Assembly: GCA_004154925.1 (NCBI GenBank)
Contig: QJNS01000172.1
Location: 8,444 to 72,443 of the forward strand
Direction: 5' to 3'
DNA from: Monosporascus cannonballus
Lineage: Eukaryota > Ascomycota > Sordariomycetes > Xylariales
Length of the DNA stretch: 64,000 nt
Below the pieces are notes generated by a model, which was given only the letters and a program-made list of their open reading frames with translations, was not told the origin of the DNA and did not search any database. The position numbers were made by a program, and so were the translations under genes. Shown here piece after piece: positions 6,317 to 61,111 of this stretch. Every line of letters begins with the position of its first letter. The stretch's first letter is position 1.

Positions 6317-7351
6317 TCAACCAAAGCGAAGCCTTCCGTTGTCATTGGATATCCGTTCGTCCAGCTCGAGCCGGGAAAAGTTCCAACTCCCCCCGCCGGT
6401 CCTCAGCTCCGCCTCCAGGACCCGCCCTCCGTCGACGAGGCGGACGTCGCGGGCCGAGGCGCCGAAGCTCCCGGCCGACCCGCCCGGCACCTGCAGGACC
6501 TGTCCCGGGTAGATCATGTCCGGGTTGGCGAGGTTGTTCCTCCGCGCGATGTCATCGAAGCTGCAGTTGAAGCGCCGCGCGATTTCCCTCAGGGTGTCCC
6601 CCTGTTGAACGGTGACGCTGCTATTACCGCCGCCGCCAGAGCCCCAGCGGAAGCGGCCGTCCTCGTTGCTGATGATGTCGTTGAGGTTCAGGGTGCTCAC
6701 TTGGTCTTGCCCGTCTTCGCGCCGGCAGGTCGCGACGAGATCGAAGCCCTCGAGGTGGATATTGTGCGATGAAGCCGAGAAGTTGCCACCGTGGTGTGAC
6801 AGCCCCCGGTCCGATGAATGGTGCCCTCCGTAATGGTGATGAGACGGCCTCGGGGAGTGGCTCGGTCGGGGAGGCGAGTAGTGTGATGATTGCTCCTGCA
6901 TTTTCTCTTCCTCCTTTTTCTCCTTGCGATCGGCCACGAAGTCCTGCAACTTGTGGCCGGCGAAGGCGCCGGCCATTGCGCCTATGATTCCGTGGCCCAT
7001 CTTATGCCCGCCGTCGGCGCCGGCCGCAGCGCCGGCAAGCCCCCCCATCAAACCACGCTCCCCTTCCTGGCCTTCCTGCCCGGGGCCGCCCGGACCGGGA
7101 CTCGGGGATGAGCCGTGTGGATTCCCATACTGCGAGTTGGGTTGACTGTAGCCGGGCTGACCGCCGGGCGGACCGTAGCCTGGTTGACCGTAGCTGGGCT
7201 GACCGCCGGGCGGGCCGTAACCGGATTGACCGTAACCGGGCTGACCGTAGCCCTGTCCTCCACTGGGATAGGGAGATTGGGAACCCGAATTATCGTTATA
7301 GTAAGACGCTGCCTCGCCACCGTAACCCTGATTGCCGTAACGGGGGTCCAT
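6317..7351 (-). CDS. CVNH lectin with inserted LysM domain (type III CVNH-LysM)
   Basis: Intronless 344-aa protein. The first ATG is at 7351; the open frame runs a few codons further only through a TTG, so 7351 is the eukaryotic start. Residues 1-98 are Gly/Pro/Gln/Tyr-rich with repeats such as YGQPGYGPPGGQ. Residues 99-135 are a glycine-zipper-like stretch (GGLAGAAAGADGG, IIGAMAGAFAGHK). Next come a charged KEKKEEEK segment and a His/Pro/Ser-rich linker. The first cyanovirin-N half is at about 188-237 (NFSASSHNIHL ... DGRFRWG), a LysM at about 245-289 (VTVQQGDTLREIARRF ... IYPGQVLQVP), and the second CVNH half at about 293-344, ending NDNGRLRFG. A LysM between the two CVNH repeats is the known type III fungal architecture, expected to bind mannose glycans and chitin oligomers. 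There is no signal peptide, so it is probably cytoplasmic or unconventionally exported. Confidence 0.92.
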   Translation of the reverse strand: MDPRYGNQGYGGEAASYYNDNSGSQSPYPSGGQGYGQPGYGQSGYGPPGGQPSYGQPGYGPPGGQPGYSQPNSQYGNPHGSSPSPGPGGPGQEGQEGERGLMGGLAGAAAGADGGHKMGHGIIGAMAGAFAGHKLQDFVADRKEKKEEEKMQEQSSHYSPPRPSHSPRPSHHHYGGHHSSDRGLSHHGGNFSASSHNIHLEGFDLVATCRREDGQDQVSTLNLNDIISNEDGRFRWGSGGGGNSSVTVQQGDTLREIARRFNCSFDDIARRNNLANPDMIYPGQVLQVPGGSAGSFGASARDVRLVDGGRVLEAELRTGGGSWNFSRLELDERISNDNGRLRFG

Positions 7352-9754
7352 GTTTGTCAAAGGTCGAGTCTAGTCGCGCTTCGGTTGATTTCACTGCACA
7401 AACGGAAGTACTTCTGGGGTGAGCTCTTGGATTCTGGCTCGAGGCGGGAAGGAGGACGATGTGATATATATTGATGCCTCAACAGTTGATGGCTCCGCTC
7501 CGCCGTCGCTCCCGCCGATAATTGCGTGGCGCTGCATCTGACGTGTGCCTACATAGCCCCTGAGCTGGACAACTAAGTGGGGCTGCATCACGCTTGCGTC
7601 GCAACCGTTGGGTTTAGTCCAATGCACCTCTGCATTCTCGACTTTGATCTTCCCTTAGAGACAACCTTAAACGCGACCATGGTGTTTAGAGTTACACCGC
7701 CTGGTTTCATTCGTTGTGGGTATCCGCTGGTTAGTCGGCATCAAAGCTGTAATGCGGATATTCGGCATGCCTGTCATTCGAACACTGCCGCTCTGGTTAG
7801 TGACCGCAATGAAGCGCTAGCCAAGGACGGGGCTTTCATTGGGGCGGTTTCTTAGCTATGAGCAACCAATGAGATAGTCGCACTAGAGAACGCCTCGAGG
7901 CACGCTGTTGGTTCGCTTTCGCCGAATGTTGCAAACCCACTCCCCTCGCGTCGTTGGCAACTTGTGGCATAGTACCAAGTACGAGGTAGACCTCACATAG
8001 AGTTTTGCACTGCCGATGTGCCAACCAAATCATTGCCTACATATGTCCGAACAAGCACTCGAGGCAGCTTGGAGAAGTGAATAATCCAATGAACTGAGTA
8101 CTGATGAGGGCCATCCCCTCCGCGTCGACGTAAACTGAATTTCTCAGCTCTCCGTCAAATTACGTAACTGGGCCGGAACTGATATTGAGGGGTATAAATA
8201 TATTTGGTTAGCTTTACAGCCAGTTTCCCCAGAAGTTTAGAGTCGCCAGAAATAGCGAAATCAGCGCCATCTCATGTGAAACCGGGGGAATCAGACAGGC
8301 AGCGCCGCACTCTAGTTTTGATTATGACCGTGGAACAGCTGAAATAATTACTGTAAACTTCGAAGCACGCTATCGGGACGACCGCCCGCTCGTATTTCAC
8401 GTTAGATGACAGAGATGCCGTATACGATGGCACGGGCGGATAACCCGATGCGGTTCAGCGACGGGGTGACATCTTACCCGAGTCCACGCGGTCCTTAAGT
8501 CTCGATGACGATGACCCCGGGATCACCGGAACATGGAGCCTGCAGCCTCCGGCCACCTCTTCCTTTTCCTAGTGAGCCTCTGGCTGTATTCCCGAACCCG
8601 GGAGTTCAGTTGCGCCCTTCAAGTACATCCGCGATGATATGTCCCTGGGGAAATGGGTGTCTTCCGTCTAGGGTTCCGTGATAATGTTGGGCGCTGGAAT
8701 ATTAGCTCGCAGAGTGTATGGAGAACCGGGTCACAATATGTGATATGTGGCCACCTTGATGTCCATCACCTTTTCCCCACTTAAACTTCTTCTTGGCCCT
8801 ATTGGTAGGTCAACGCTGGATTGCTCAGCGAGACCGTAGATTTGCATGATATGCCATACGGTTACGGATGCAGGACCATTCACACTTCGGGCATTGCATG
8901 CTGTTTGCACATCCTTCATATTGCGAAGAGATCGTACGTAAGGCAAGTCGCATCTCTGCCACCGCTGAAGGAAATGCGGCTGGAGCGGCTCTCCTCCGCG
9001 AACGGGAACACAAGTCGCTGCGAATAGAAACGATAGCAGTATCGAACAGAGTTTCAAGATAGTCTGGTAGCTGGCAAAATTACCCAGGAGACGGCAAAGT
9101 TTCCAGCAGCGGATGGGCTCGTTCTTAAGCGCCTAATGACCAAAGGCTGTGTAATAGGCACAGCTTGGCGGCTGATCCTCTTTGTGCAGGCGACTGTATA
9201 GTCCACATAAAGATCGGGGTCGAGCATACCGGTTCCAACAGAGGCATGGACTCGGCTAAACATGCATCATGGAGGTTTGGCCACGAGGTCATCGAATATT
9301 TAGGGCAAGTATAATAATGTCGACATTCGTAAGGGCTCTATCCAGAGATCTGGAGGTATATGTTTTCATATGTGCTCAGCTTGGTCTGAGATGCTGAAGA
9401 CCACTCATCACGTACGTCTAGATTTCACATGTTACACAGCCACCTAATACTAATTAGGAAACGACCTCAGGTTATGGCTCATGGATCGGTGAAACCTTTC
9501 GAACGGTAGCATGCTCAGGTTGTCAACTATAAAGGTCGCTATTATACTGCGTACGCTATGCTCAGTAAGTCCGCGTACCGTACGATCGTGACTAGAGAAC
9601 GCCATAAGTCGTGTTTGGATAAGCTTTGTAAGAATATTCGGGGGTGGTTTGGACCGGGTTGAGCCCTCGTGTCCTCTAACTTCATTGCTTTCGCAGGTAT
9701 TATAGGATGTGTGTTCCGAACTTTGCTCTTATGGACTTGCAAGAGACGGTATCT
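7352..9754. other. Intergenic, 2.4 kb, no gene supported
   Basis: Holds the promoter of the minus-strand lectin gene; an AT stretch GATATATATT at 7461-7470 could be its TATA region. Small open frames at 7577-7855, 7836-8033, 8731-9057 and 9054-9263 have no recognised domain, and the one at 8731-9057 starts at TTG. No RNA gene or repeat seen. Confidence 0.4.
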
Positions 9755-28981: not shown

Positions 28982-29399
28982 TATAACGAACTTATTATAT
29001 ATTATTTGGTAATATAAGTAATATCCGAAAAAAATCTTAATTTATAAGTAATAATAAGGCGAAAAATAACTTAATATGTTCGTTAAGGAGATTTTACGGT
29101 ATTCTTTTCTTAATTAAAGAACGGTACGGTTGCCTTTGATTAAAAGCTTAGATTGATAGCTAAAAAGCGGAATTAAATAAGTGGCTATTTACATAAAAAA
29201 CCTGAAGTTTTATACCTTTTTTTATTCTATTAGTGTAATACTGATTTTTTGGATTTATTAAATCACCCAGATTATAGTGATTTGTATGATCTAATAAATC
29301 AGTTAGATCACTTTAAGTTATATGACTTAGAGTATGGAGCTTTTCCTTTTTCTGCAGCCCTGGGGCCTCCAGAACGGGTCTATTCGGGGATCCGTAACA
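28982..29399 (-). repeat. 5' LTR of element A
   Basis: 418 bp, TATAACGAAC...ATCCGTAACA on the plus strand (TG end mutated to TA). The end near 29399 is GC-rich and appears spared, in contrast to its partner. It contains a 9-bp periodic GATnnnnnn run around 29249-29330, open as MDLLNHPDYSDLYDLINQLD on the plus strand, probably by chance. Confidence 0.85.
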
Positions 29400-31198
29400 A
29401 AACCGTTCTAAAGTTTTGTAGATCTCTGGATATTTATATAACTAATATTCGTATACATTTCGTACTAGATCTTTTTAATATTCTTTTAGAATTTATATTT
29501 TGACCGTTTTTTGGAGATTTGGGAAACCGTCGTTATACTGCTGGATTTTCTGATATATATTGCTAGGCACTGCTCGAATTATCGCAATTTATCGTAAACG
29601 TAAATATCTTTCCATAATGGTATTAAAAATTATATGGCTAATTTTGATCAATCTTTTTCGAAATTTAGTTATTTGCTTAAGGTATCGGCTTTACCGTTTT
29701 TTAAACTTTTTTTGTAAATAATAACGAAATCGAAATTCGCTAAGTTTTTCGCATAACGGAATTATTATTTTATAAATTTCTTGGTCGTAATAAATCGACC
29801 AAGATTTTAATAATTCGTATAAACCTTAATCTGGTATAAGTTTTCCTTTAAGAAATACGTAAACTTTTAGAAGGCTACAATAATAACTATAAAACTTTTA
29901 TCTGAAATGCAGTAATTAAACTCGGGTTTTTTTAATTTATATAAAAAAAATATAATAACGTCTAATTTGTCTTAATTATTTCGTTATTTAATTACTGCGC
30001 TTAACTCGTAATTCGAAATATAGGTTTTTAATTTAACGAGATTGATTAAATTATATATAATTAGTACTGGTTTGCTGGTAATTGCATTCTTTATATCCTA
30101 AAATGCTTTTTTTATTTTAGGCGTTTATTTAAACGTTTTTTTCGTGAGGTTCGTTAAGGGTATAATTATTTTACTAAAGTTTCGAATAAACTTCCTATAG
30201 TAATTAGCGAATTTAAAGAATACTCAAATCTTTTTAATCGTAACTAACGTTTATTATTTTATAACTATAGCGATTTTTTAAGGTTTATTTTGATATATCT
30301 TAAGGTATTAATATGTCTTAGATATTTTATTTCCTATATATGGAATTAACTTTTTTCTACGTTAACAAACAGCCTTACGTTTTATAAAGTTGAAAGAACT
30401 TTGTAAACGTATTTTGTATATATTCTTTCTGTTTTTAAGAAAATGAAAATGTCCTCGAGATAGCAAATAATAAAAATATAAACGTATTTCCGTAGCATAT
30501 AATTAATTATCTGTTAAAAGGTTGCGAATATATTCGTAAGTTCTATTAGCCTAATTAAGTATTTAAATAATCCGTATTTCGTTCTAAAAGTTGTTTTTTA
30601 TTTATATTCTTTTTTAATTCTAATAAGATTATATTTATTTTTAAGATCGAATATTATAAATTATTTAGTTCCGTAAAATAGGTTTTTTATTTTTATATTT
30701 AAGGTTAATAATAATCGATTTTTCATAATAATATTGTTCAGTTATCGATAATCGACTATAAATTGTAATTTTCCGAATTGTTTTAGGTGCGAAAAATATT
30801 AGATATTTTGCTAATAATTTCGAAGATTGAATCCCTTTCTTTTATAACCGACTTTTTAGGTATTTTTTAAAAGCGCGCAATTCGTTTTCGTTAAAGTTAT
30901 AAATAAGGTAAAACTTCGTCGAAGATTTTTTTTTAAAAAAGTATTTTATAATTTTATTTGTTATATTTTAGAAATTGTGTAATAAGTTTTTTTAAAAAGT
31001 TATTTATATCGATAGTATTATAATAGTATATTAGTTACATTTTTTGACTTTTAGGACTGCTGTTTCAAGTCGTTATTTAGTTGCCTTAATTTCGTTTTGA
31101 TAATGGTAACAATACGGGGCATTTTTTTGATGCTTATTTTCTTTTTTATGTTTTGTCCTTTTGAGTGATAAGGGTTTTATTATGTCTTTATGCCTATA

Positions 31199-31331
31199 TG
31201 TTACGGTTTGGGGGTACCGTACAAGTTCCAGTATATATATAGCTGTAAGCATCAGGATGATTGCTACAATTGCGATCATTCCACCAATCTTTTGAGCCCC
31301 GGTGGTGTAACGGTATAGTGCAGCCGTAACA
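31199..31331. mobile_element. 133-bp mini-LTR-like element E1, TSD CTATA
   Basis: Begins TGTTACGG and ends CCGTAACA, an 8-bp perfect terminal inverted repeat with TG...CA ends. It is flanked by perfect direct repeats CTATA (31194-31198 and 31332-31336). It is much richer in GC than the surrounding RIP-degraded element D. It is homologous in the same orientation to E2 at 37900-38029. It is either a solo LTR of a very small LTR family or a non-autonomous TRIM/SMART-like unit. The minus strand holds a hydrophobic micro-ORF starting at 31279 (MIAIVAIILMLTAIYILEL). Confidence 0.85.
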
Positions 31332-33816
31332 CTATATTTATCGCTATTTTCAATCGAATGTTAAGATTTTAATTTTTTTTGTCCGTTAATAAGATATAAG
31401 GCGAATTTTACCTAGCCAGTCCTTTTATTAAATAGAATTCTATATTAGCGTATTTATAATAATTCTAAGATCATATCGTAATTTCTAAATAGAATGATAT
31501 AGAAATTAATTATTTGATATAGTATTTAGATAAAAATTTCGAAATAATTAATTTCGCGTATAATTTTCTCGTTATTGTAGGCGAATCTTTGACTTTCGGC
31601 ATTCGTAATTGTATACGGTTTTAATTTGTATTTTTATAACAGTCTGAACCTATTGATTACGTTTCATATAATGTAATTTCCGCCTAAAATTTCGCAGTTT
31701 ATTATTGCGGTATACTAATACATTTTAATTCGTATATCTAATGTAATAAAATTATTATCGGCTTTTATCGTCGCATTTAAAGTCTTTTTTGAAAACTTCT
31801 TCTAATTTTTTAAAGTTTCGTTATTCTGCGGCCTTTTTATAAGTAACTTTTTTTTTTAAATTTCTGTTCGAATTTGTCGAATTTTATTTGTATTTCGGTA
31901 TATAGCGCGTTAAGTTGTTACATCCATTATTGTTACCAGCGTATTGTTTTTTCGTGTTGTATTAATTATTTTTAATTTTGCTGTAATTGTTTTCCTTATT
32001 AAGTAAAATATTTTTTATAATTTCGACCGCATTCTTATATGCTTTATATTAATTGTCGTTTCAGAGTTTGTCTATAAACTGACGTATATTTTTCTTAATA
32101 ACTTTTTTTCGTTAAGATTTATAATAAATATTAATTAATAAAAATCTATAATAATTCTTTGGTAATATATTTCTATTATATACTGGAATAACTTTTTTCC
32201 GTTTAATAGTTATATTATTAGTAACGATTAAAAGGGTCTTCCTATAGGTATTGTTTTTTTAGCCCAGTTTTTTATTTCGATTAACTGGTAAATATTGTTT
32301 AGGATTATAGAACGAAAATATTAATATTATTATTATCGATTTCGTTATTTCCGATACGGTTTGGAAAGTCATATCCTTTATAATATATGCGGGTAATTTG
32401 TTTGTAAATATTTTATTTTTATTTTTTATAATCGGAATATTTTCGTCGTCGATAATATATAGCGTATATTTTGCCGTATCGATAAGGGGTTTCGGGACAG
32501 ACTTTTTCTATTTAATTCTAATAGTTTCGTAATTATTCTTATGATTTTTCTTATTATACTTGTAATATTTATTAGGCTAATTTTTTAGCTTCGCGTATTT
32601 GCTGTTAAACCTTTGACTATAAAGAGCCCGATACGTCTTTAGGCCGAATTATATTAATAAATTTGTTTTCGTTTGTTTGAATTTCTTTAGATTATCTTTT
32701 AAGTACGGGATTTTAATTGTCCTGACGGGACTTTTTAAGTGCTTTGTACCATGCTGCCTTATTTCCTATTTTGTTGTCATTAAAACGTTTAGTTTGACTT
32801 CAACTTTTTCTGTAAATAGCTTTTAATTTTATAGAAATTAGTTCTGTGCCGTATAAAGTATTCTAACGTCGAAAAATGTTAATATTAACCGTATATCGAA
32901 ATTTATTATTATTTTATTAATACTTTTAATACGCTAGGCGTATTATCGATTATTAATTTTAATTACTATAACGATACAGTCTGATAAATAATTAGGCCTA
33001 TTAAACTTAAAAAGATTTTAGTACTTTTTTTAGGCCGTTAAAAAACTTAATTATTAGTTCTTTTTATTGTTAATTTAATTTAAAAATTAATTAAACGAAG
33101 ATATTGTCGTAATTAAATATTAATCTTTTTTATTGTAATTGCTGGATTTATATTTCGGTTGTTAATTTTTTATTTATTATTCCGAAAATCTTTGTTAATA
33201 TTTACTTAAACTGTTCGTTATCCTTATAACTTTCTATTATTTCCGGGTTTCGTTTTTTGACTGATAAAATAACGTATTTTTTTTATAACGGGCTTAAACC
33301 AAATAGCTGCGTTTCCGGCAAATCGTTCGAGTACAAATTTAATTTGTATAATAAGCGTAATTAGTCGAATAGAAAAATACCTAAAATAAGCTTGGCATTA
33401 AGTTAGATATAATTGTAATTTAGTCGAAGTTCTGTCGAAAAATTCTGGTTTAGGAGGTTTAAGAATTTTTTCTAGTTTTTTAGTAGAATTCAGCTAAATA
33501 ACCTAGTCCGTTCGAAAAGGCTTTGCGATTTCGAAAGCCTTTTTTTTTCCTAACTTCTTATGAGCGGCTTAGAAAGATGTCGTAAGATTATTATTATCCT
33601 TTTTAAGCTAAAAGATATGTTTATTTATAATATCCAGGCGTCGAAAAACTTTTTTGCAAAAAAGGCGAAGTTATTCCTTTTCTTTTTTAGATTTTATTTT
33701 AATATCCGAGTTATTAGGAATCTGGTAAATGAGCTGTTCGGGCTGTTTGCTAGTAAATATAATGTCGGCGATATTGCTTAAAGTTTAACGGTATTATTAA
33801 ACAAAACTTTATAACG

Positions 33817-34641
33817 CATAACGGCTAAATAATTTAACCAATTATTAAATCTTAATTGTATAGATTTATATTAATAAGAATATCGTAAAACTCTAAGTAA
33901 TAAATATAGTAATACATTACATTTTTTAATATTAAAACTACTAAAATTATATTATAAATAATTATTATTATGTGACAGCTAGGGGGTTTAACTAACTATT
34001 AAACCTTAGTCGTACGGGTTTATGTTGGCAGGAATATCGTGGGATTCTGAGCAATGGATACAGTAACGTATTACGTTTCGTAATACCAAGGGTGCCTTGG
34101 ATAACGAATTGTTATTGTAAGCTGAAGCTATCTAGACTATGGAAATAATAAGCGTATATATACTTGTTCTGGTTCAAGGTATCTTGGACTGGCTCAAAGA
34201 CGTTTAGTTAATTAAGTCCCCTTGAGCCCCCTTGAGCCCTCCATGACTTAACTGGTTTAACGTCCCTGAGCCAATGACAACGTTTGAGCCCATTAAGCCA
34301 GTCACGTGACTCCTTGGCATGGATCGGGGCTGGTTTCTTCTGGGGCCCGATCGTCCGTGAAGGGCCAAGACCGTTAGGTTATAACATATTAATAAATGTT
34401 ACAAATTAAAGCTATTTAAATTATAGAAATAATAAGCACATATATCTTGATTCGGCTTACTGGCTTATTACCGGTAAGTTGGTAATCCGGCTTACTGGCT
34501 TACTATTAGTAAATTAATAATCCGGCTCACTGGCTTACCACCGATAAGTTGGTAATCCGTTACGTGACCTGCCATACCGCGCACTCGTGGTTAGGTCGTG
34601 GCAGGCCGTTTCTGAAGACCGTAGCCTGTTGGGTTATGATA
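33817..34641 (-). repeat. 5' LTR of element D, interrupted by a solo LTR of its own family
   Basis: Outer LTR pieces 33817-33970 and 34392-34641 join once 33971-34386 plus one TATTA is removed. The outer copy is strongly mutated (start CATAACGG for TGTGACGG, end TTATGATA for TTATAACA). Its U3-side part contains three exact-length 35-bp tandem units: 34454-34488, 34489-34523 and 34524-34558. Confidence 0.8.
33971..34386 (-). repeat. Solo LTR, family B, TSD TATTA
   Basis: 416 bp, TGTGACAGCTA...GGTTATAACA, flanked by TATTA (33966-33970 and 34387-34391). It is far less mutated than the LTR it interrupts. Its variable part (about 34160-34370) is rich in CTTGAGCC-like short repeats and unrelated to the variable parts of other B copies. 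Confidence 0.9.
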
Positions 34642-36223
34642 TTTATACTTCCTTTATAGTAAATATTCCTTTTTTAAAGCCGTTTATTTTTGGTTTTCCG
34701 ATATTTACTAAGAATATAATTTGTTTTGCGTAAATAACCGTTTTTTTTCTAAAAAAGCAATTTTATACAAAAGCATTAAGTTATTTTTTTATTAAAAAAT
34801 TAACCGATTTAATTATTTTTATTAACGAATTACTTTAGTGGTTTTAAATTTTCCTTTATAAAAAATGTCCCCGTTAAATCGTTTCAACAATATTTCTAAG
34901 AGTTTTTATAAATAAGAAAATAACGGAATTAACAGAAATAAACGGCGAAATAATCGATATAAATACAACTAGAACTTTTAATTCGAAAAAACGCAATAAA
35001 AACCGAATAAAATAAATTTTGCTTTTGTAAATCCGAATTTAATATTATCGGTCTTCATAACAGTTTTAAACGTATTACGGAAACCGGCGATAAAATTTTT
35101 CTTAGCAATATAGATAGTATACCGCCGTATAAAACTTTCGATATAAAACGAACACGCGTATTTTAATACGGAAAAACAAGATACGTCGAAAAATTAAAGC
35201 CGATAAAAAGAATAAGTAAGTATACAAAATATAATAATATTGTTAATTTGCTAATATTTTTCTAATCCGATCGAATAATAATTTTTGTAATCGCTAAAGA
35301 TAAAAAAACGTTTTAAACATTTGATATACGTTTTAATATATTTATCGAAACGCTTAATATATTTTAAACTCAAGTTATTTATTATTTAACCGTTTTCGTT
35401 TATAGCAAACTTTTAATCAGATAAAAGTAAATTATCGGCGAACTAGCGAAAAAGGTAGTTTTTTCGAGCAAAACTAATAAATAATAATAAAACCCAGCCT
35501 TAAAAATTAACGGCTTATATTATCGTAAACTATTTCCGATTTTCTTATTACATTGAATAAGGTTTTTTATATTTTTAAATATTAATAATAATTATACTTA
35601 TTACTATAAAAAATCATATTAAAAATTCGGTTTCGTCGAAATTATAAATATTCTCTTTTACGATATCGTATTTTGCAATTATAATTCGGATAAGCTTAAA
35701 CTATTTTCGAAATACTTCTGGATTTTTACATAAAACCCTTTAATAATTTATTTTTTAATTTAAACGCGTCTCGAATTTTTTTTATCGTTTAATAAAATTA
35801 AATACTCAGTTAACTTTAACGCGTCTCGTAACGTATTACGTAAATAACAAATTCGTTATATCTTTAACGTATTAACGCCGGATAAGAAATGTTCGCGTAT
35901 CTAGATTAAAGATCCGTTCGGCGATTAATTTTTTTTTCGATCGACGTTAGTTTTCGCAAATTGAGAATAATATCGGCTCGAACGCGTTTATCGTAACATC
36001 GGGCTCTTAAAATTGCTTTAGTAATATCGTATATTGCATTAAGCTTTTTAGAATTAAGTTTCGAGATATGTTTTTTTGTCTAAATAACTAAATTTATTTT
36101 TGTTTCTATTTAAAAATGTTCTATGTTATTGGTGTTAAATAATATATATTTAAAGTTGGTAATCGTAATATAAACAAAAAATAAGTCGTGAACTTATTTA
36201 AGTCGCGAGTTTATATAGTACAT
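34642..36223 (-). mobile_element. Truncated Fot1/pogo transposon G2
   Basis: Homologous to about 59095-61111 of the complete copy G1, in the same orientation. The right TIR is present, ending TATATAGTACAT at 36223 followed by TA, with ACGT mutated to ACAT. The left quarter and left TIR are missing; the sequence starts abruptly at the end of the D LTR. The transposase is on the minus strand and is heavily degraded. Confidence 0.75.
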
Positions 36224-36225
36224 TA

Positions 36226-37899
36226 TGTCGTTTTATTAAATAACAATTTATTTAGCGTAAATGGCGTATACATTAGTTGTTATAAAAATTAAATTATTTT
36301 AAAATTATTTTATAGATTATTTATTTTAAAATAATTCGATTAATACAACTTTTACCGTTTTTTATATAGCGCCTATAAAAGGCTTCACCTGAGCGGTCTG
36401 CAATCAGTTGCCAATGAGAGTTTATTTTCTAGCTAAAGAGAAAAGAAAGGGAAGATGAAAATACAGTTGTGTGTGTTCGCATATAAGGCGCTGCGCTAGT
36501 GCTGCTTGGTACCGGCGTTTGTCCAGTGCTCTATAATAGGGCTCCATACAGCCCTATCACAGCGCCTATAACAGAGATTTGAAATCGTAATTACCTTTTA
36601 AATTGTTACAAAATTTCCTTTATTAAACGTTAAAAAGGCGTTTTTAAAAAAAATAGCTTAATAACTATTTAATATCGTCGGATTTTATATAAAACAGCAG
36701 TTATATATATTAATATTATCTTAAGATTATTTTTACAGAAAATTTATTATTAAGTAAAATGCCTTTTTTCGCCTTTTAAATGGGACCGAGCCCTTAGATA
36801 TTATTTTTCCAACCGGGCGCTTAGGTATTATTTTTTTTAATAAGGGGTTGTTTTATAGCGTAAAAAATTTTCCTTTTAACGTTAGATGGTTTTTTGATTT
36901 CAGAATAAATTAGCAAGTCGTTTATTTAATGCGCGTTACTTTGATTATTACTGCATCTATTAAATTAGTAACAAATCATTATTTTATAAGTATTTTAATA
37001 AACCTTTATTATTATAAAACAATTTGTTATTTTAATAAAGTAAATACATTAATAATAATAATAATATAATACTAAGTAGATATTTGGCGAATTTTTAATT
37101 AGGCATAAATATAGGCGAATTCTTTTTAGAAAAATAGGATATATAAAGTAATACAAGTAATTAAAAACATTTTCAAAATTTACTTAGGTACTTTACTTTA
37201 AAAAGGTTTATTTTTTATTATAACAAAGATAATATATATAATATTATTATTTTACGATTATTTCTACAATATTAATATATATAAATAAATATTTTTTTAT
37301 AGTAGAAATTATGTATTATGGAAGAAAAATAAATAATAAAAAATGAAAAAAAGAATAATCTAATATTAAATTTAATCCGTTTTTAAAAATTGCGAATGTA
37401 TTAATCGTGCTATTTGTTGTCTTAATTCAATAATTACGAGCCTGGTTTATTATAATTATAATAATAAATTTAAGATATTTTGACAAAACGGCCGGTTTTA
37501 AGTAAGCGTTAAAGTTTAACTTTTCGAAATCTTATTTGCTTATCTTTTAATAACGCTTTTATTTTTAATATTAGTTGGCCTTTTTTTGTTGCGAAATTAA
37601 TCTTTAGATATAATTCTTTAAGATTAAAATCCTTTTGCCCTAATATTTTAATTAGTATATGAAGATTTTCGAAGTACTTAATTTTTGTCCTTATTATTTT
37701 CGGTTTTATCCGGATAGTTTAAATTGTTATTTACTATTTCGTAAAACCTTTTTAATAATAAATTATATTGAGCCGATAATTTGTTTAGGTTTTCAATAAA
37801 CGGAATATAAAATATTTTTTGCATTTTTTTTCTTACGCTTTTCGAATCGTTTTCGGGCATAAACGAGTTCGTTATTATCGTATGCAATATTATTATTTA
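36226..37899. other. AT-rich relic DNA with one GC-richer island
   Basis: No gene. An island at about 36364-36573 is GC-richer and bounded by the direct repeat AGCGCCTATA (36368-36377 and 36561-36570). Read on the minus strand it begins TGTTATAGGCGC and has a TATA-like CTTATATG and a leader-like stretch, so it may be a solo LTR or short non-autonomous element. The rest is RIP-like AT-rich sequence, including an uninterpretable 69-codon minus-strand frame at 37678-37887. Confidence 0.4.
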
Positions 37900-38029
37900 T
37901 GTTACGGCCTGGTCATCTATAAAAGCTCCAGTATATATACAGCTGTAAGCACTAGGATGATTACCACAATTGCGATCATTCCACCGATCTCTTGCTCTAG
38001 TAGCGTGATGGTATAGTGCAGCAATAACA
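37900..38029. mobile_element. 130-bp mini-LTR-like element E2, TSD ATTTA
   Basis: Homologue of E1. It starts TGTTACGG and ends CAATAACA (the right end has lost its match at two positions). It is flanked by ATTTA at 37895-37899 and 38030-38034, so it is an independent insertion. It contains CTATAAAAGC (37917-37926), like a TATA box, on the plus strand. The minus strand reads MIAIVVIILVLTAVYILELL then stop (37978-37917), matching the E1 micro-ORF with only conservative changes. Confidence 0.85.
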
Positions 38030-38034
38030 ATTTA

Positions 38035-41654: not shown

Positions 41655-44600
41655 CGTTGTAAGTTTTTATTTAGTAATACCGTTAAATTCTGAGTAATAT
41701 TATTAAAATGTCGACCAGCATTTAGGAAACCCTTATTTAGCAGCTTTAGGCTCGAATTCGGGAATTGGAGAAAAAAGTTCGACAACTTAAGGTTAGGCTA
41801 TTTATCCAAACCTTTTTCGCCCGTATGAAGCCTAAGAAACCGGAACCTTACGATGGGAAAGGAAACTCTTAAACCTTTTTGATTTAGATATAAATTTATT
41901 TTCGTTTTCTGGACTTTAGTAATCCAGCGGATATAGTTTTAATAATAGGAATATACCTAATAGGAAACGCAGTTAATTAATTTAAGCTTATTATAGGAAA
42001 TTTTCTAAAAATAAGAAAATCGGTTAAAAAGGGTTTTATTAACGAAATTTTCTTATTTTATATCAAATTCGAAAATAAAGTATGCGATAATTTTAATAAC
42101 CCGGATAAATAACGATTTACGACTTAGTAACTTTTGTAATTTCGATAAAAAAACTTATATTTAAGTACGCCGTAGTTTTTAAACATTTTGCGATTAAGGC
42201 CGGATAAGGAAATAATGAAACCGATATTTTTATCGACATATTTTATAAAGAGTTAAAAGATAATATGAAAAATAAAATTATTCGGATTAAATAATTAATT
42301 ATCCTAGATCGATATATTACAAAGGTAATTAAAATTAATAATTAATAATTTAAAAGATAATCGGAAAAAAAGAATAATATGTTTTACGTTCGGGATATAA
42401 TAAATCAAACCAGGGGAAAAAACGAAGCGTACCTTTATTTTTACGGAACGGCGCCAGGATTTATGGAATTCGACGTTATCTATAAATAAAACTAAAGCCA
42501 AATTAAATACTTTAATTACGGCAAAATAGAACATAAAACCTATAAATATAGGAAACCCAAAAAGCCATGGTAAAATAACTTGACCCCTATACCGGAAGGA
42601 TACTTTAGGAATAATTACGGAAATAACGGTAAGGTTATTAACATAATTTAAGTTAAGTACGTATTAGGTTTATGGCAAAATATCTAATAAGGACTATTAC
42701 GATAAGAAATATGACAAAAAATACGCGAAGTTAAAAAGCTGGTTTAATAAATATCGCGAATATAACAAAAGGCGTTATAAAGATAATTACGCGAATATGA
42801 GAACTGGATAAAAAGAATTTATCTCGGAATACCTAATTGATATGGCAAAATGTACGCCATATACTGTCGACGACAAGAATATCCCGATTACGAGAAATAA
42901 AAATAATATATTTACGAACGAATTACCTGTATGTATTATAAGGGATTCGATTTTCCAAATCGTACCGGAAATAATAAGGATAATAAGTAATGGTATTGAT
43001 ATTTTCGAACCATAACCCCAGGAGATATTTAGCAGTTGGCCGAAGTAGAAAATTAGCCCGAAAGAAAGTAATATCCATAGGAAAACCCCTTTTATTATTA
43101 TAGATAATATAATTATTAAACGGAAAAGGAATTAATTTAGCGTACGGTAAAAAACCATTATCAGAAAGTTATTACGGATTTTTATTTTTAATTAATATTT
43201 ATTATAAATCCCTACAAAAAAGATTTCAAAGAAAAAATACGTTAATTTATAGAAAAACGTTAAAACGACAGCTAAGACGACGTATAATAGGATGTAATTA
43301 TAAACATAAAAAATAATTTATTTAATGGAAAAAGAATTACAAAAAAACTAAAAGTAATTAATATAACTCAAAGGAATAATACGCCGACAATAATAATAAA
43401 TATAGCAGCTAAATATATTAAAGGAAAAATATAAATAGAATTCGATAAACTTAAATAAAAATTAAAAAAAGGTTACTTATAAAAAAGCCGCAAAATAACA
43501 AAACTTAAAGGAAGTAAAGGGAATTTCCAAAAAAAGCTTTAAATACGACGATAGGAAACGTTAACGACCTTATTACTTTAGATATATAAATCGGAATGCA
43601 TTAGTATATCGCAATGGTAAATTGCGAAATTTTGGGCGGAAATTATATTATATCAAATATAATTAATAAGTTTAAATTATTATAGAAATATAAGTTAAAA
43701 TTTTATATAACGACAAATATCGAAAATTAGGAATTCGTTTACGATAACGAAAAATTTATATGCGAAATTAATTATTTTAAGATTTTTATTTAAGGACGAT
43801 ATCAAATAATTAATTTCGATATCGTTTTATTTAGGAATTACGATATAATCTTAGAATTACCATAGATACGTTAGTACGGAGTTTTGATTAACGGTAAAAC
43901 TAGCTAGGTAAAGTTCGTTTTATTTCTTATTAATAAACGAAAAAGAAAAAAAATAAAGTTTTAATATGCGATCGATAATAGCGATAAATATAAGCATAAA
44001 GATACGATAAATATTTTATTACCTAAAGAAATAAAATACAAAAAAAATAGATATTAAAAAAGAATACGACGTATTATTATTATCATTAAAATAAAACTAA
44101 AATAACTGAATAACGATTTAAAACAATAAGAATAATAGCCTTAAAAGTTAGAAAATTTAATTAATATATTATTACAATACTATAGATACAAATAGTTTTT
44201 TTTAAAAAAAGGCTTGATACGAAATTACTAGAATATAGCGAATAAAATTATGAAATAATTTTTAAGAAAGGATTTTCGACGAAGTTTTACCTTATTTATA
44301 ATTTTAATAAAGATGAATTATGTACTCTTAGAAAGTACCTAAAAAATCGGTTATAAAAAAATAGATTCGACTTTCGAAATTACTAACAGGATATTCCATA
44401 TTTTTTATACTTAAAAAAACGAGAAATTACGATTTATAGGTAATTATCGACAATTAAATAATATTATTATTAAGAATTAAATATTATTACCCTTAATTAC
44501 GGAAATAAAAAACCGATTTTATAAAGTTAAATAATTTATTGTATTCGATCTTAAAAATAAATATAACCTTATTAAGATTAAAAAAATACGAATGGAAAAT

Positions 44601-47590
44601 AACTTTTAAAACGAAATAGGAATTATTTAAATATTTGGTTATATTAATAGGACTTACGAACGTACTAACAATTTTCTAACTAATAATTAATTACGTATTA
44701 CGAAAATACCTTAATACTTTCGTTATTTGTTATTTTAACAACATTTCTATTTTCTCGAAAACGGAAAAAGTATATACAAAATATATTTATAAAACTTTTT
44801 ATATTTTATAAGATATAAAATTATTTATTAACGCAGAAAAAAAATAATTTTATATATAAGAAATAGAATATTTGGAATATATTATTACTTTAAGACATAT
44901 TAAGATAGACTCCAAAAAAATCGCTGTAATTATAAAATAGCAAATGCCAATAACGGTTAAAAAAGTACAGGTATTTCTTAGATTTGCCAATTATTACAAA
45001 AAGTTTATTTAGAACTTTAGCAGAATAATTATATTCTTAATAAATTTTACGAAAAAAAAACAATTTTTAAATGGACGCCAAAAATGGAAAAAGTATTTCA
45101 GGAGATTAAAAATGCGATTACCAGCGAACCAGTACTAATTATATACGATTTAAACCGTTCTGTTAAGCTAAAAACCGATATTTCGAATTAGGCGTTAAGC
45201 GTAATAATCGGATAACGAAATAATTAAGGTAAATTGTACCTTATTGTATTTTTTTCGTACAAATTAAAAAGAGCCGAACTTAATTACGGTATCTCAGATA
45301 AGAAATTTATAGTTATTGTTATGGCATTTCGAAAGTTTAAGCATTTCCTAAAAGGAAATTTATATCAGATCAAAGTTTATACGGATTATTAAAATCTTAC
45401 CTAATTTATTACGACCAAGAAATTTACAGGATAATAATTAAAATATACGAAAAAAATTGACCAATTTCGATTTTATTATTATTTACCAAAAAAATCAGAA
45501 AACGGCAAAATAAATACTTTAAGTAAGCGATCAAACCTTGAAAAAAATTGGTTAAAGTTAATTATATAATTTTCGATATTATAATAAAAGGATATTTACG
45601 TTTACGACAAATTGCGATAATTCGGGTAGTACTTTTCGATATATATTAGAAAATTTAATAATATAATAATAATTTTTTAAAAAGTTAAAAAACAGAAAAA
45701 ATACAAATTCTAAAAGAATATTAAAAGGATTTGGTACGAAAAATATATAAATATCAGTTACATAAATATCCAAGGATTTATAAAACTTTAAAGCGATTTT
45801 AATATATATATTTTTTTCCTAAAATAAAATTAATAATATAAAAAATCGTACACGAATATAATATTTGCGCCAAAGCAAAAATTCGACGATATAAGCCATA
45901 CGGAAAATTACAGCTATTACCAATCGTAAAATAATTATAATATTTAGTTATATTCGACTTTATTATCAAATTTCCTATATTAAAGAATTTAATTATAAAA
46001 ATATATTATGATAATATTTTTGTAATTATCGATCGATTTACGAAAATTTCCTATTTTTTACTATATCATAAATATATAAATGCCGAATAACTAATATATA
46101 TTTTTTAGGCATATTTTCAATATATACGAATTGCTTATAGAAAATATATCAGATAAAGGATCAATATTTATATTTAAATTTTAGCAAATCTTTATAATAT
46201 AAATCGGCCTAAATTATAAATTATTTAATGTATTTAAACTATAGATATATACATAAATAAAACGAATAAATTAAACTTTAAAAATTTATTTACGATATTA
46301 TATTAATTATAAACAAAATAATTAAGTTAAAACATTAATAATGGCATAATTAACTTATAATACCAAGTATTACGAAAATATTAAAATAATACTTATAAAT
46401 ACAAATTTTCGTTTTATTCCAAATATTTACAGAAAAGTACGTAATAATAATCTAATTAATATTAAAATATTTTTTACGTTATAATAATTACAATAATTGC
46501 ATTAAGAAACAAAGATAAAACTGGAATTCGTACGAAATTAAATAAATAAACTTTCGAAAAAGAGGAAATAATTTTCCTTATTACAAAAAACATTTAAACA
46601 AAATAACTTAATAAAAAAACTCGATTTCAAATATATCGGTTTATATAAAGTCGCCAAAAAATCTCAGAAAATAATTATTAATTAAAGCTTTTATTAAAAG
46701 TTAAATTTTACCCAATTTTTTATATTTCCTTATTCGAATTAATACCAGATATAATCAAAGTATATACGGTACAAGATAATATAAAATTGAAAAATAAGCA
46801 GGTATACAAAGTAAAAAAAGTTTTCGATATACGAAAATAAAACGGATTTACCCAGTACCTAATTAAATGGAAAAAATACCTAGATTCCGAAAATACCTGG
46901 AAACCTGCTAAAAACCTTATTGGCGCTTAACGCCTATTAAAAAAATTTTACTAATAACGACGGAATTACCGGATATAATTATGTCTTAATTAACGTTTTC
47001 TAACGGCCAAGTAACGCCGAACAGCTTAAGGGAAAAAGTTAAGGCGATTAAGGAAGCTTCGGCGTTAGACTGTTTTTAACGTTCCTGTTCCTTTAATTCC
47101 TTTAGCGATTGTAATTATTGCTGTATTATTTTAATTTTTTTTGAACGAAAAAACGCTTTCTGTTTTCGAAAACGGATTAATCGCATAATGGCTTTATTTA
47201 TTTTTTGCTAATAACGTTTTTGTAATTCTAAGAAATATTTCTTCGCCAGCACCTTTTTATATTTTAAACGTTAATTTTCGGTACGAATATTTTTTAAAAA
47301 AGATAAGGGAACGCCGTTATTATTACAAAAATAATTACGTTTAATATATGCCTTATATTTAGAAACGTTTTCTATTATTTCGCATTTTTAACCTTTAAAA
47401 AAACATAAAAAATACGGCATAACTTCAAATTTGAAATTATCAAAAATAAAAAAAAAATTTTGACATCGCGTAATGGACGAAAAAACCTAATAATAATTTT
47501 TAATAATACGGGCCGATATCTTAAAAAGAAAAAGTTTACCAAAAGGAAAAAAAAAATCTTAAAGGCAAAATTTGGGGAAAGGGAAAATCA

Positions 47591-58804: not shown

Positions 58805-61111
58805 ACGTATTATATAAGTAAGTTGAACACATAAATAAGCTGGACATTTTTTGGCATTTCGCAATAATAAATTCAAATTAAATAATTATAACATAATAAA
58901 TTCATTTAAATTAATCGGATTCTTTATCGTTAAACGTATTTATAGTTTTCTTATAAGTATGCGTATTATATCTGGGCTCACCGCAAATGCCATATTTCCG
59001 TTTTTTCGCCTGAACTCTTTTACGACGATTATCTTTAGCCGCTGTTAATTATAATTATTTATCATCACCTTTTTTCGTAATTATAAAAGTTTGAGTTTTC
59101 TTTATAGTAAGTATTCTTTTTTTTAAAAAAACGTATGTTTTTAGTTCTTTGGCGTTTATTAAGAATGTAATTCGTTTCGCGAAGGTAATTATTTTTTTTC
59201 CGAAAAAAAAGCGACTTTATATAAAAGTATTAAGTTACTGTAACGAACCTATCATACATCCACCTGGAAGTATAAGCAGTATCCGAAAAGGGTCTTGATT
59301 TGCAGGTAACAATAAGGCGAAAAATAATTTAATATATTCGTTAAGGAAATTTCAAGGTATTTTTCTCTTAATCAGAAAACGGTATAATTACCTCTGGCTA
59401 AGAGCTTAAATTAATAACTAAGGAACGAAAAATTAAGTAAGTAATTATTTATATAGGAGACCCAAACCTTATATATCCTTCTTATCCTTTATATTTCTCA
59501 TAGTCTCTGGGGATCTCGAGAAACCATGGTGTCTGTCGTCCACGAATCTCCTGGTATCTCTGGAAATTGACAGAGACCCGAGGTTTATCCGATGGAAGGT
59601 GGAGATCCCGAGCGTCTCCAACTTCCTGGGCCTCTTTTGGGCCTAGTGGAGTCCCTTCTGAACGTAACAGTTACTTTTATTAAAAGATTAATTGATTTAA
59701 TTATCTTTGTTAGCGAGTTACCTTAGTAATTTTTGACTTTTCTTTACAAATAACGTTTCCGTCAAGTTGTTTTAATAATTTTTTTAAGGGTTTTCGTAAG
59801 TAAGGAAATAGCGAAATTGGCAGAGGTAAGCGGCAAAACGGTTAGTATAGGTATAACTAAAAATTTTAGCTGGAAAAAGACGCGATTAGGATCGAATAAA
59901 ACAAATCCCGTTTTTGCGAATCCGGATTTAATATTATCGGTGTTATAATAGCTTTAAATACGTCGTGAAAGCCGGCGATAAAACTTTCTTTAGCAATATG
60001 GGTAACGTATCGCCGTATAAAATTTTCGATATAAAGCGAATACGCGCGTTTTAATACGGAAAAATAAGATATGTTAAAAGGTTAAAGCCGATAAAAGGAA
60101 TAGGCAGGTATACAAAATATGATAATATTATTAATTTGGTAATATTTTTCGAATTTGATCGAATAATGGCTTTTGTAACCGTCGAAAATAATAAAATATT
60201 TCGAATTTTTAATACGCGTTTTAATATATTTATTAAAATATTAAATCTATTTTAAACTTAATTTATTATTATTCAGCCGTTTTCGCTTATAACAAATCTT
60301 TAATCCGATAAAGGTAAGTTATCGGCGAAATAGCAAAATAAATAGTTTTTCTTAGTAAAAATACTAAATAAAGATAAAACCCAGTTTTAAAAATTAATAA
60401 CTTATATTACCGTAAATTATTTCGCATTTCCTTATTAACCTTATCGAAATTTTCTACATTTTTTAACGTTAATAATAATTATGTTTGTTACCATAAAAAA
60501 CCTTATTAAAAATCTCGTTTTGTCGAAATTATAAATATTCTTTTTTGCGATACCGTATTTTGCGATTATAACTCGGATAAACTCAAATTATTTCCGAAAT
60601 ATTTCTAAATTTTTATATAAAAGTTTTTAATAATTTATTTTTCGATTTAAACGCGTTTCGAATTTTTTTGGCCGTTTAATAAAGTTGAACACTTAATTAA
60701 CTCTAACGCGTCTCGTAACGCGCTGCGCAAGCAGCAAATTTGCCATATCTTTAACGTATTAACGCCGGATAGGAAACGTTTGCGTATCTAGATTAAAAAT
60801 CCGTTCGACGATCGATTTCTTTTCGATCGGCGTTAGTTTTTGTAAAAGAGGGATAATATCGGCTCGGGCGCGTATACCGTTATATCGCGTTTTTAGGGTG
60901 AAATATAGGATATTATAAATAGAACTAAGTTTTTTATAACTAATTTTCGAGTTATTTTTCTTAGCCTAAATGGCTAGGTTTATTCTCGATTTTTTAATAA
61001 GCTGTTCCATATCGTGGTTAGAAAAAAAATAAGTAATTGAAGTCGGATAATAAAATTGTTAAAAGAAAATATCCAGTTTATTTGTATGTCCAGCTCACTT
61101 ATATAGTACGT
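58805..61111 (-). mobile_element. Fot1/pogo transposon G1 with TIRs, split by a solo LTR
   Basis: TIRs ACGTATTATATAAGTAAGTT (left) and ACGTACTATATAAGTGAGCT (right, minus strand) with TA at 58803-58804 and 61112-61113. Subtracting the inserted LTR and one GTTAC leaves 1871 bp, almost the same length as H. On the minus strand the transposase reads LTPIEKKSIVERIFNLDTQ (about 60845-60790) and KDMANLLLAQRVT (about 60755-60715), then KYGIAKKNIYNFDKTRF (about 60560-60510), where the usual NFDETGF has E-to-K and G-to-R changes as expected from G-to-A mutation. Confidence 0.9.
59239..59669 (-). repeat. Solo LTR, family A, TSD GTTAC, inside G1
   Basis: 431 bp, TGTAACGAACC...GAACGTAACA, flanked by GTTAC (59234-59238 and 59670-59674). 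The conserved left part matches other A LTRs; the right part (about 59490-59665) is GC-rich and unrelated to the variable parts of the other copies (repeated TCTCTGG/TCTCGAG words). Confidence 0.92.

Follow-up and report, generated by a model that had tools for sequence, protein, structure and literature searches.

We report that two short insertions, E1 and E2, in the genome of the fungus Monosporascus cannonballus are most probably solo long terminal repeats (LTRs), of two subfamilies, of a gene-less retrotransposon of the size of a terminal-repeat retrotransposon in miniature (TRIM) that is presumably mobilised in trans and appears to prime its own reverse transcription in a Tf1-like manner. 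E1 and E2 lie in a stretch of 64,000 nucleotides (assembly GCA_004154925.1, contig QJNS01000172.1, positions 8,444 to 72,443 of the forward strand), called here the window, in which positions are counted from its first letter. The TRIM has LTRs of about 131 bp and an internal region of about 190-210 bp, without room for genes. A preliminary description of the window had already suggested solo LTRs of a TRIM or of a small LTR retrotransposon (SMART), and this proposal is upheld by paired copies around a short internal region found elsewhere in the genome. What is added here is the self-priming layout, together with palindromic integrants that appear to record self-priming.

The limits of E1 and E2 and their 5-bp target site duplications (TSDs), CTATA and ATTTA respectively, were as first described (Table 1). 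Both are complete insertions of one 130-133 bp unit, as had been proposed, each with its own perfect TSD. For E1 the empty site was also found: a diverged paralogue of its flanks (75.6% over 1024 columns) runs through the site without E1 and shows there a single 5-mer, TTATA, which identifies E1 as an insertion. No paralogue of the E2 flanks was detected within the window. At a tolerance of 3 mismatches, a 19-nt core of the unit occurs twice in the window, versus 0.02 occurrences expected from shuffles. The surroundings of E1 are AT-rich repeat DNA. E1 and E2 are richer in GC than their flanks, as had been remarked, and the same was observed for all 80 complete copies examined in the genome (median LTR GC 0.48, flank 0.29), 60 of which have flanks below 35% GC. 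The statement that the window holds no matching internal region was likewise confirmed, as neither of the two internal-region searches returned a place on its contig (C97).

The 88.8-Mb assembly (618 contigs) was searched for the unit, as the preliminary description had advised. At least 41 scored matches were obtained with E1 and at least 40 with E2, each query included (scoring covered 40 of 430 first-look candidates for E1 and 40 of 508 for E2), and the core pattern AATTGCGATCATTCCACCRATCT, with up to 2 mismatches, was present at 422 places, 100 of which were listed individually, versus none in the reversed control. The unit therefore has hundreds of further copies, and most of those examined carry their own TSDs and do not form the edge of a larger element. 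The LTR sample comprised 104 hits, of which 81 were full-length and 80 of these were flanked on both sides (L005, at the end of a contig, was left out, so that the comparison of E1 with its neighbours covered 18 of 19). Tabulation of the flanking 5-mers showed perfect duplications at 57 of the 80 LTRs, with 50 distinct 5-mers; among the 23 LTRs lacking them, at least 12 adjoin the TRIM internal region (5-mers read by eye) and 6 differ by one base. The TG...CA ends, the TSDs of fixed 5-bp length that are specific to each site and the paired direct copies elsewhere are those of an LTR retrotransposon. At one locus (L053, C165:105000-106400), two LTRs of different subfamilies are separated by 85 bp, have distinct TSDs (TAAAA and ATATC) and represent independent insertions. 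No copy was found in the plasmid collection or in viral contigs, which were searched with one exact pattern.

Complete elements were recovered at several loci. In L051 (C101:430321-430774; 522-975 in the fetched locus), two LTRs of 131 bp enclose an internal region of 192 bp, giving an element of 454 bp with the outer TSD TTTCA; an element of less than 1 kb, with two LTRs and without coding capacity, corresponds to a TRIM. So do the sequence resembling a primer-binding site (PBS), ATGATCGCA, that follows the 5' LTR and the purine-rich GGTGGGGCAGAG or GAAGGGGCATAG that precedes the 3' LTR, which were recognised by position and by eye. The outer TSDs are GTACG for L055 and AAGTT for L079, and the outer 5-mers of L052 (CAGGG/CAGGA) are one base apart. 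Internal queries from the two subfamilies matched 14 and 19 places, 22 of them distinct, and PBS patterns added three further loci (C569, C210 and C312:18742), giving 25 in total, several of which are partial or decayed. Solo LTRs seem to outnumber complete elements about 10-fold, a rough ratio in which both counts are lower bounds and the 422 core-motif places include paired LTRs. The locus at C312:18742 (L091) has a 5' LTR and the PBS, after which the TRIM internal sequence gives way to unrelated DNA within about 45 bp, and is a truncated element. Ten other fetched PBS-pattern places (L092-L101) matched neither the LTR nor the internal query; this examination covered the pattern places except several AT-rich ones with 1-3 mismatches.

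Regarding the priming of reverse transcription, the internal region starts with TAATGATCGCATGACGG in subfamily A or CTATGATCGCAAGACGG in subfamily B, with no tRNA-type TGG. The complement of this PBS, TGCGATCATT or TTGCGATCAT, lies within LTR positions 72-82, where the 11-mer TTGCGATCATT is identical in 73 of the 80 LTRs and begins 38 bp after the first base of a TATA-like block. Thus, paired copies around a short internal region were found as had been anticipated, whereas the tRNA-type PBS expected with them was not, the PBS being complementary to the element's own LTR. The complement is 10 nt long in L052-type elements, in L079-type elements and against E1, compared to chance means of 5.0-5.2, and was equalled in 23, 14 and 20 of 20000 Markov resamples, respectively. 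The segment of about 11 nt in the LTR that matches the PBS of Tf1-type elements is therefore represented, in the least mutated elements, by a 10-nt complement. A scan for the 11-mer (the repeat, or R, motif) followed by 36-66 bases and by CA plus the PBS returned 7 exact places, all of this family, versus none in the control; four belong to loci that contain TRIM internal sequence, and the remaining three are palindromes (see below). It should be noted that a relaxed PBS pattern tolerant of repeat-induced point mutation (RIP), with up to 2 mismatches, gave 62 places versus 95 in the control and was excluded from counting.

The palindromes carry the second part of the evidence. The locus L137 (C555), fetched as a possible element of a third subfamily, consists of ATTAC, a whole LTR, 2 nt, ATGATCGCAA, an inverted copy of R and of the unique 3' (U3) region, and again ATTAC; its inverted arm repeats, as reverse complement, the part of the LTR between the first base and the position just ahead of the motif. 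In total, five loci have a PBS that runs directly into an inverted R-U3 copy. Three of them possess both ends, with TG...CA termini, lengths of 214, 216 and 238 bp, the TSDs ATTAC, GCTAT and ACTAA and arms identical at 67/70, 66/72 and 77/83 positions; for the loci on C422 and C4, the fetched sequence stops short of the left end. Priming of DNA synthesis by R:PBS pairing would be expected to generate loci of this form. In one possible route, plus-strand strong-stop DNA ending in a copy of the PBS would prime on R, of its own or of another molecule, and be extended to the end; in another, a U3-R fragment of the RNA would prime at the PBS and then be copied. Both routes need R:PBS priming, and neither would be expected with a tRNA primer. 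The palindromic DNA, with two U3 ends, would be accepted by integrase. The arms of one palindrome, L138, differ in a manner that matches two subfamilies, the right arm having a 2-nt insertion seen also in L135; two molecules probably took part in its formation, a hint that two RNAs were copied jointly. The spacing from the TATA-like block and the palindromic loci lend indirect support to TTGCGATCATT as the putative RNA 5' end and primer. Another locus, L078 (C90:118056-118238 region), in which the 3' end of a TRIM is broken by an inverted LTR that by eye is like the L139 subfamily, was discounted as a palindrome and is read as a nested insertion.

Predicted RNA folds were examined from LTR position 72 onwards. 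In the models of the L052 and L079 RNAs, the 5' end pairs with the PBS and the stem closes over two hairpins (H1 and H2), with z scores of -2.10 for L052 (4 of 200 shuffles as good) and -2.68 for L079 (3 of 200). Covariation in the hairpins was assessed on the 55 distinct rows of the 80 LTRs, with relatedness uncontrolled. The paired fraction of H2 was reached by none of 500 shuffles and that of H1 and H2 together by 58 of 500; in addition, one pair of H2 has changed cleanly on both sides between subfamilies, being T-A in 30 and C-G in 23 of the 55 rows.

Several observations weigh against this interpretation. Among the 21 elements tested, the 10-nt complement is intact in 4 and at least 8 nt remain in 6; in the others it is broken by changes, many of which look RIP-like by eye. 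The start of the RNA at about LTR position 72 is deduced from the TATA-like block and the motif, the 80 LTRs were picked by likeness to E1 and E2 and are hence a biased, non-random set, and priming by tRNA was tested against just 20 tRNA-like loci. The junction pattern of the palindromes, with up to 2 mismatches, gave 21 places (3 exact, on C555, C117 and C465, and 18 inexact) versus 4 in the control, and of 3 inexact places fetched, those on C422 and C4 show the join of PBS to inverted R-U3 and that on C579 (L142) does not: this place fits the pattern at one mismatch, yet is read as a solo LTR in inverted orientation. The folds of L138 (z of -1.19) and of the RIP-mutated L055 (z of -0.44) are non-significant, and the L137 stretch folds differently, its inverted arm competing. 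The paired fraction of H1 was reached by 500 of 500 shuffles, without covariation support; the two double-changed pairs of H2 were matched by 128 of 500 shuffles, some slid versions having three, so that the case for H2 comes mainly from one deep change. Finally, searches by internal-region similarity, by PBS patterns and by the position of Gypsy gag matches revealed no autonomous partner carrying this LTR or PBS.

The preliminary description had further supposed that the unit is too short to attract RIP, a process that has a length threshold. This holds only as a tendency. Six copies without internal sequence (L002, L003, L004, L006, L007 and L008) are identical to each other, five of them having different perfect TSDs and L004 mismatched flanking 5-mers. 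The full-length copies of the E1 subfamily are mutated, since 13 of 13 substitutions in L051 and 25 of 27 in L055 relative to the solo L002 are C>T or G>A (substitutions only, gaps excluded). The two insertions of the window, however, carry such changes themselves: all four differences of E1 from the six identical solos are C>T or G>A, and 11 of the 13 private changes of E2 are of these types. The pattern fits RIP hitting elements of about 450 bp while mostly sparing solo LTRs of 130 bp.

Taken together, these observations most probably reflect the following sequence of events. A transcript of RNA polymerase II (Pol II) would start at about LTR position 72; its 5' end, TTGCGATCATT, would base-pair with the PBS that directly follows the 5' LTR and, after cleavage, would prime the minus strand as in Tf1. 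The enzymes of another LTR retrotransposon would mobilise the TRIM in trans. Most complete copies would then collapse to solo LTRs, short enough to largely escape RIP. More tentatively, and with rather low confidence, R:PBS complementarity might regularly yield by-products that integrase accepts, namely the palindromes and also many of the solos, which would arise by direct integration of one-LTR DNA and not by recombination. If the 130-bp unit is itself a product of transposition, this would explain why six identical solos exist and no unmutated full-length copy of their subfamily was found.

The alternative that survives best, although we hold it to be unlikely, is an element like Helenus (TRIMp3), transcribed by RNA polymerase III (Pol III) from a tRNA-derived promoter whose box A would lie in the LTR and whose box B would be internal, the TTTT at LTR positions 92-95 acting as terminator. 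Helenus is a precedent in fungi (PMC10886601). Sequences resembling box A (TGGTGTAACGG, TGGCGTAATGG and TGGTGTAGCGG) occur in several LTR subfamilies and a perfect box B, GGTTCGATCCC, in the internal region; in L052 the latter lies within a perfect T-arm with a 5-bp T-stem, and by eye no TTTT intervenes from box A to the TTTT of the 3' LTR. This reading was demoted because the commonest version of the LTR breaks box A (TGGCGTGATGG in 26 of 80, plus TAGCGTGATGG in 4 of 80, a strict match being present in only 42 of 80). In addition, the two boxes lie on opposite sides of the LTR border, unlike those of Helenus, for a Pol III start near position 90 the TATA-like block is placed far upstream, and no Rfam family was matched, at E values up to 5, in five loci holding complete elements.

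It is improbable that the element is instead primed by an internal piece of a host tRNA, with the match to the LTR being accidental. Half-tRNA priming is usual in fungal Helenus (PMC10886601), and the coverage of tRNAs was small, 63 of 3789 candidates having been scored and 20 loci fetched. Among these 20, however, the longest complement to the PBS was 6 nt, against 10 nt in the element's own LTR, and a tRNA primer leaves unexplained why the palindromic integrants join the PBS exactly to the R-U3 of the LTR. We give still less credence to E1 and E2 being solo LTRs of a larger, ordinary autonomous retrotransposon with unusually short LTRs. Solo LTRs alone cannot separate a TRIM from a large element, and the genome has 78 Gypsy gag matches as well as Copia-like coding DNA (by eye). 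Nevertheless, the internal regions examined, reached with the two internal queries and the PBS patterns, all belong to this TRIM family, and the sole LTR pair on one strand within a few kb that was noticed among the 100 listed places, 4.5 kb apart on C191, is read as two separate solos (L135 with the TSD TTATC, L134 with the near match CCACG/CCCCG). A miniature inverted-repeat transposable element moved by a DNA transposase, to which the 8-bp inverted ends of E1 (TGTTACGG/CCGTAACA) and the 5-bp duplications might point, is highly improbable since copies paired in direct orientation surround an internal region that is conserved, begins with a PBS-like sequence and ends with a purine-rich one.

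Places matching the tRNA family RF00005 were also considered; the two loci that were extended adjoin Copia-like coding DNA and do not belong to this family. In these loci (L132 and L133; C195:27950-28700 and C607:136550-137300), the tRNA-like sequence lies downstream of the C-terminus of a Copia RNase H (by eye) and upstream of a G-run and an LTR-like start, and similar places (34-50 bits) are present on many contigs. A Copia family may carry a tRNA-like sequence in its 3' untranslated region.

Table 1. Features of the E1 and E2 insertions, in window positions.
Feature	Position	Strand	Basis
E1 left TSD, CTATA	31194..31198	+	sequence
E1, probable solo LTR, 133 bp, ends TGTTACGG...CCGTAACA	31199..31331	+	sequence; empty site in paralogous flank
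E1 right TSD, CTATA	31332..31336	+	sequence
E1 TATA-box-like TATATATATA, LTR positions 34-43	31232..31241	+	block conserved among 80 LTRs; putative function
E1 TTGCGATCATT, LTR positions 72-82, proposed RNA start and self-primer	31270..31280	+	PBS complementarity; putative function
E1 box-A/D-arm-like TGGTGTAACGG, inside the predicted hairpin H2 region	31303..31313	+	putative Pol III role
E2 left TSD, ATTTA	37895..37899	+	sequence
E2, probable solo LTR, 130 bp, second subfamily, more decayed	37900..38029	+	sequence
E2 right TSD, ATTTA	38030..38034	+	sequence
E2 TATA-box-like TATATATA	37932..37939	+	conserved block; putative function
E2 TTGCGATCATT, proposed self-primer	37970..37980	+	putative function
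Paralogue of the E1 flanks without E1 (empty site)	43483..44496	-	alignment; inverted-repeat arms also found

The AT-rich stretch of the window (about 17.5-61.5 kb) contains diverged direct repeats that are 60-88% alike and inverted repeats that are 71-92% alike, among them the stretches 29399-31855 and 43464-45989, and also 34986-36009 and 59875-60895. These repeats are consistent with RIP-mutated copies of transposons. Apart from this stretch, an open reading frame on the minus strand (6317-7360) encodes CVNH and LysM domains, a pairing suggestive of a filamentous ascomycete, and includes a 42-bp tandem repeat at 7139-7247.

If the proposed layout is correct, the family would be a gene-less retrotransposon cut down to little beyond a self-priming RNA signal, and would show how few features suffice for copying by the enzymes of another element. 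In the palindromic loci, self-primed DNA synthesis would have left natural traces that can be surveyed in genomes, beyond yeast assays, and the difference between full-length copies mutated by RIP and the cleaner solos would offer a natural gauge of the length threshold of RIP.

In the literature surveyed, mostly non-subscription and in part accessible as excerpts, neither a self-priming TRIM nor such palindromic insertions were found, which does not establish their absence from print. The family resembles TRIM and SMART elements in its short paired LTRs, its tiny gene-less internal region, its size below 1 kb, its TSDs, its solo LTRs and its presumed mobilisation in trans. In other TRIMs, according to the sections available of two papers, the PBS is of tRNA type or unidentified (PMC10886601; PMC6934838), whereas here it is complementary to the LTR; in the portion available of the second, which deals with bivalve TRIMs, self-priming is brought up once, as a comparison. 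Cassandra and Ajax are TRIMs for which a Pol III promoter is known or possible and which have 5S rRNA sequence in the LTR; here, no 5S rRNA match reached the Rfam gathering score in the window, nor an E value of up to 5 in the five complete-element loci. Helenus (Kojima 2024, PMC10886601), whose fungal families are from Pucciniales and Agaricomycetes, shares with our family the TRIM structure, the 5-bp TSD, tRNA-like boxes A and B and solo LTRs. Both boxes of Helenus are inside the LTR (PMC10886601), whereas box B is internal here. No complementarity between the tRNA-like part of the LTR and the PBS is reported for Helenus (PMC10886601); in our family the PBS complements a motif just upstream of the box-A-like part. 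The GalEa Copia elements of fungi (Conserved Hairpin Site, PMC5445492) are likewise LTR elements of ascomycetes without a tRNA-type PBS. In the excerpts available of that work, the site is palindromic and no sequence complementary to it was found in the LTR; our family has such a complement in its LTR.

The nearest likeness in priming is to Tf1-type elements, in which a segment of the LTR forms the 5' end of the RNA and, cut after nucleotide 11, serves as primer for a reverse transcriptase of the Tf1/sushi clade of Gypsy; the same layout is seen in Tj1, as described in the available part of its report (PMC4600332). The well-studied Tf1-type elements carry their own genes, whereas the TRIM described here has none, and its RNA start and cleavage are proposals. 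Its complement is 10 nt long and corresponds to nucleotides 1-10 or 2-11 of the motif, depending on the subfamily. We claim likeness to the Tf1-type mechanism rather than membership: the 5' end proposed for the RNA offers about 11 nt of complementarity to the PBS that follows the 5' LTR, and the predicted stem closes over hairpins of the unique 5' (U5) region.

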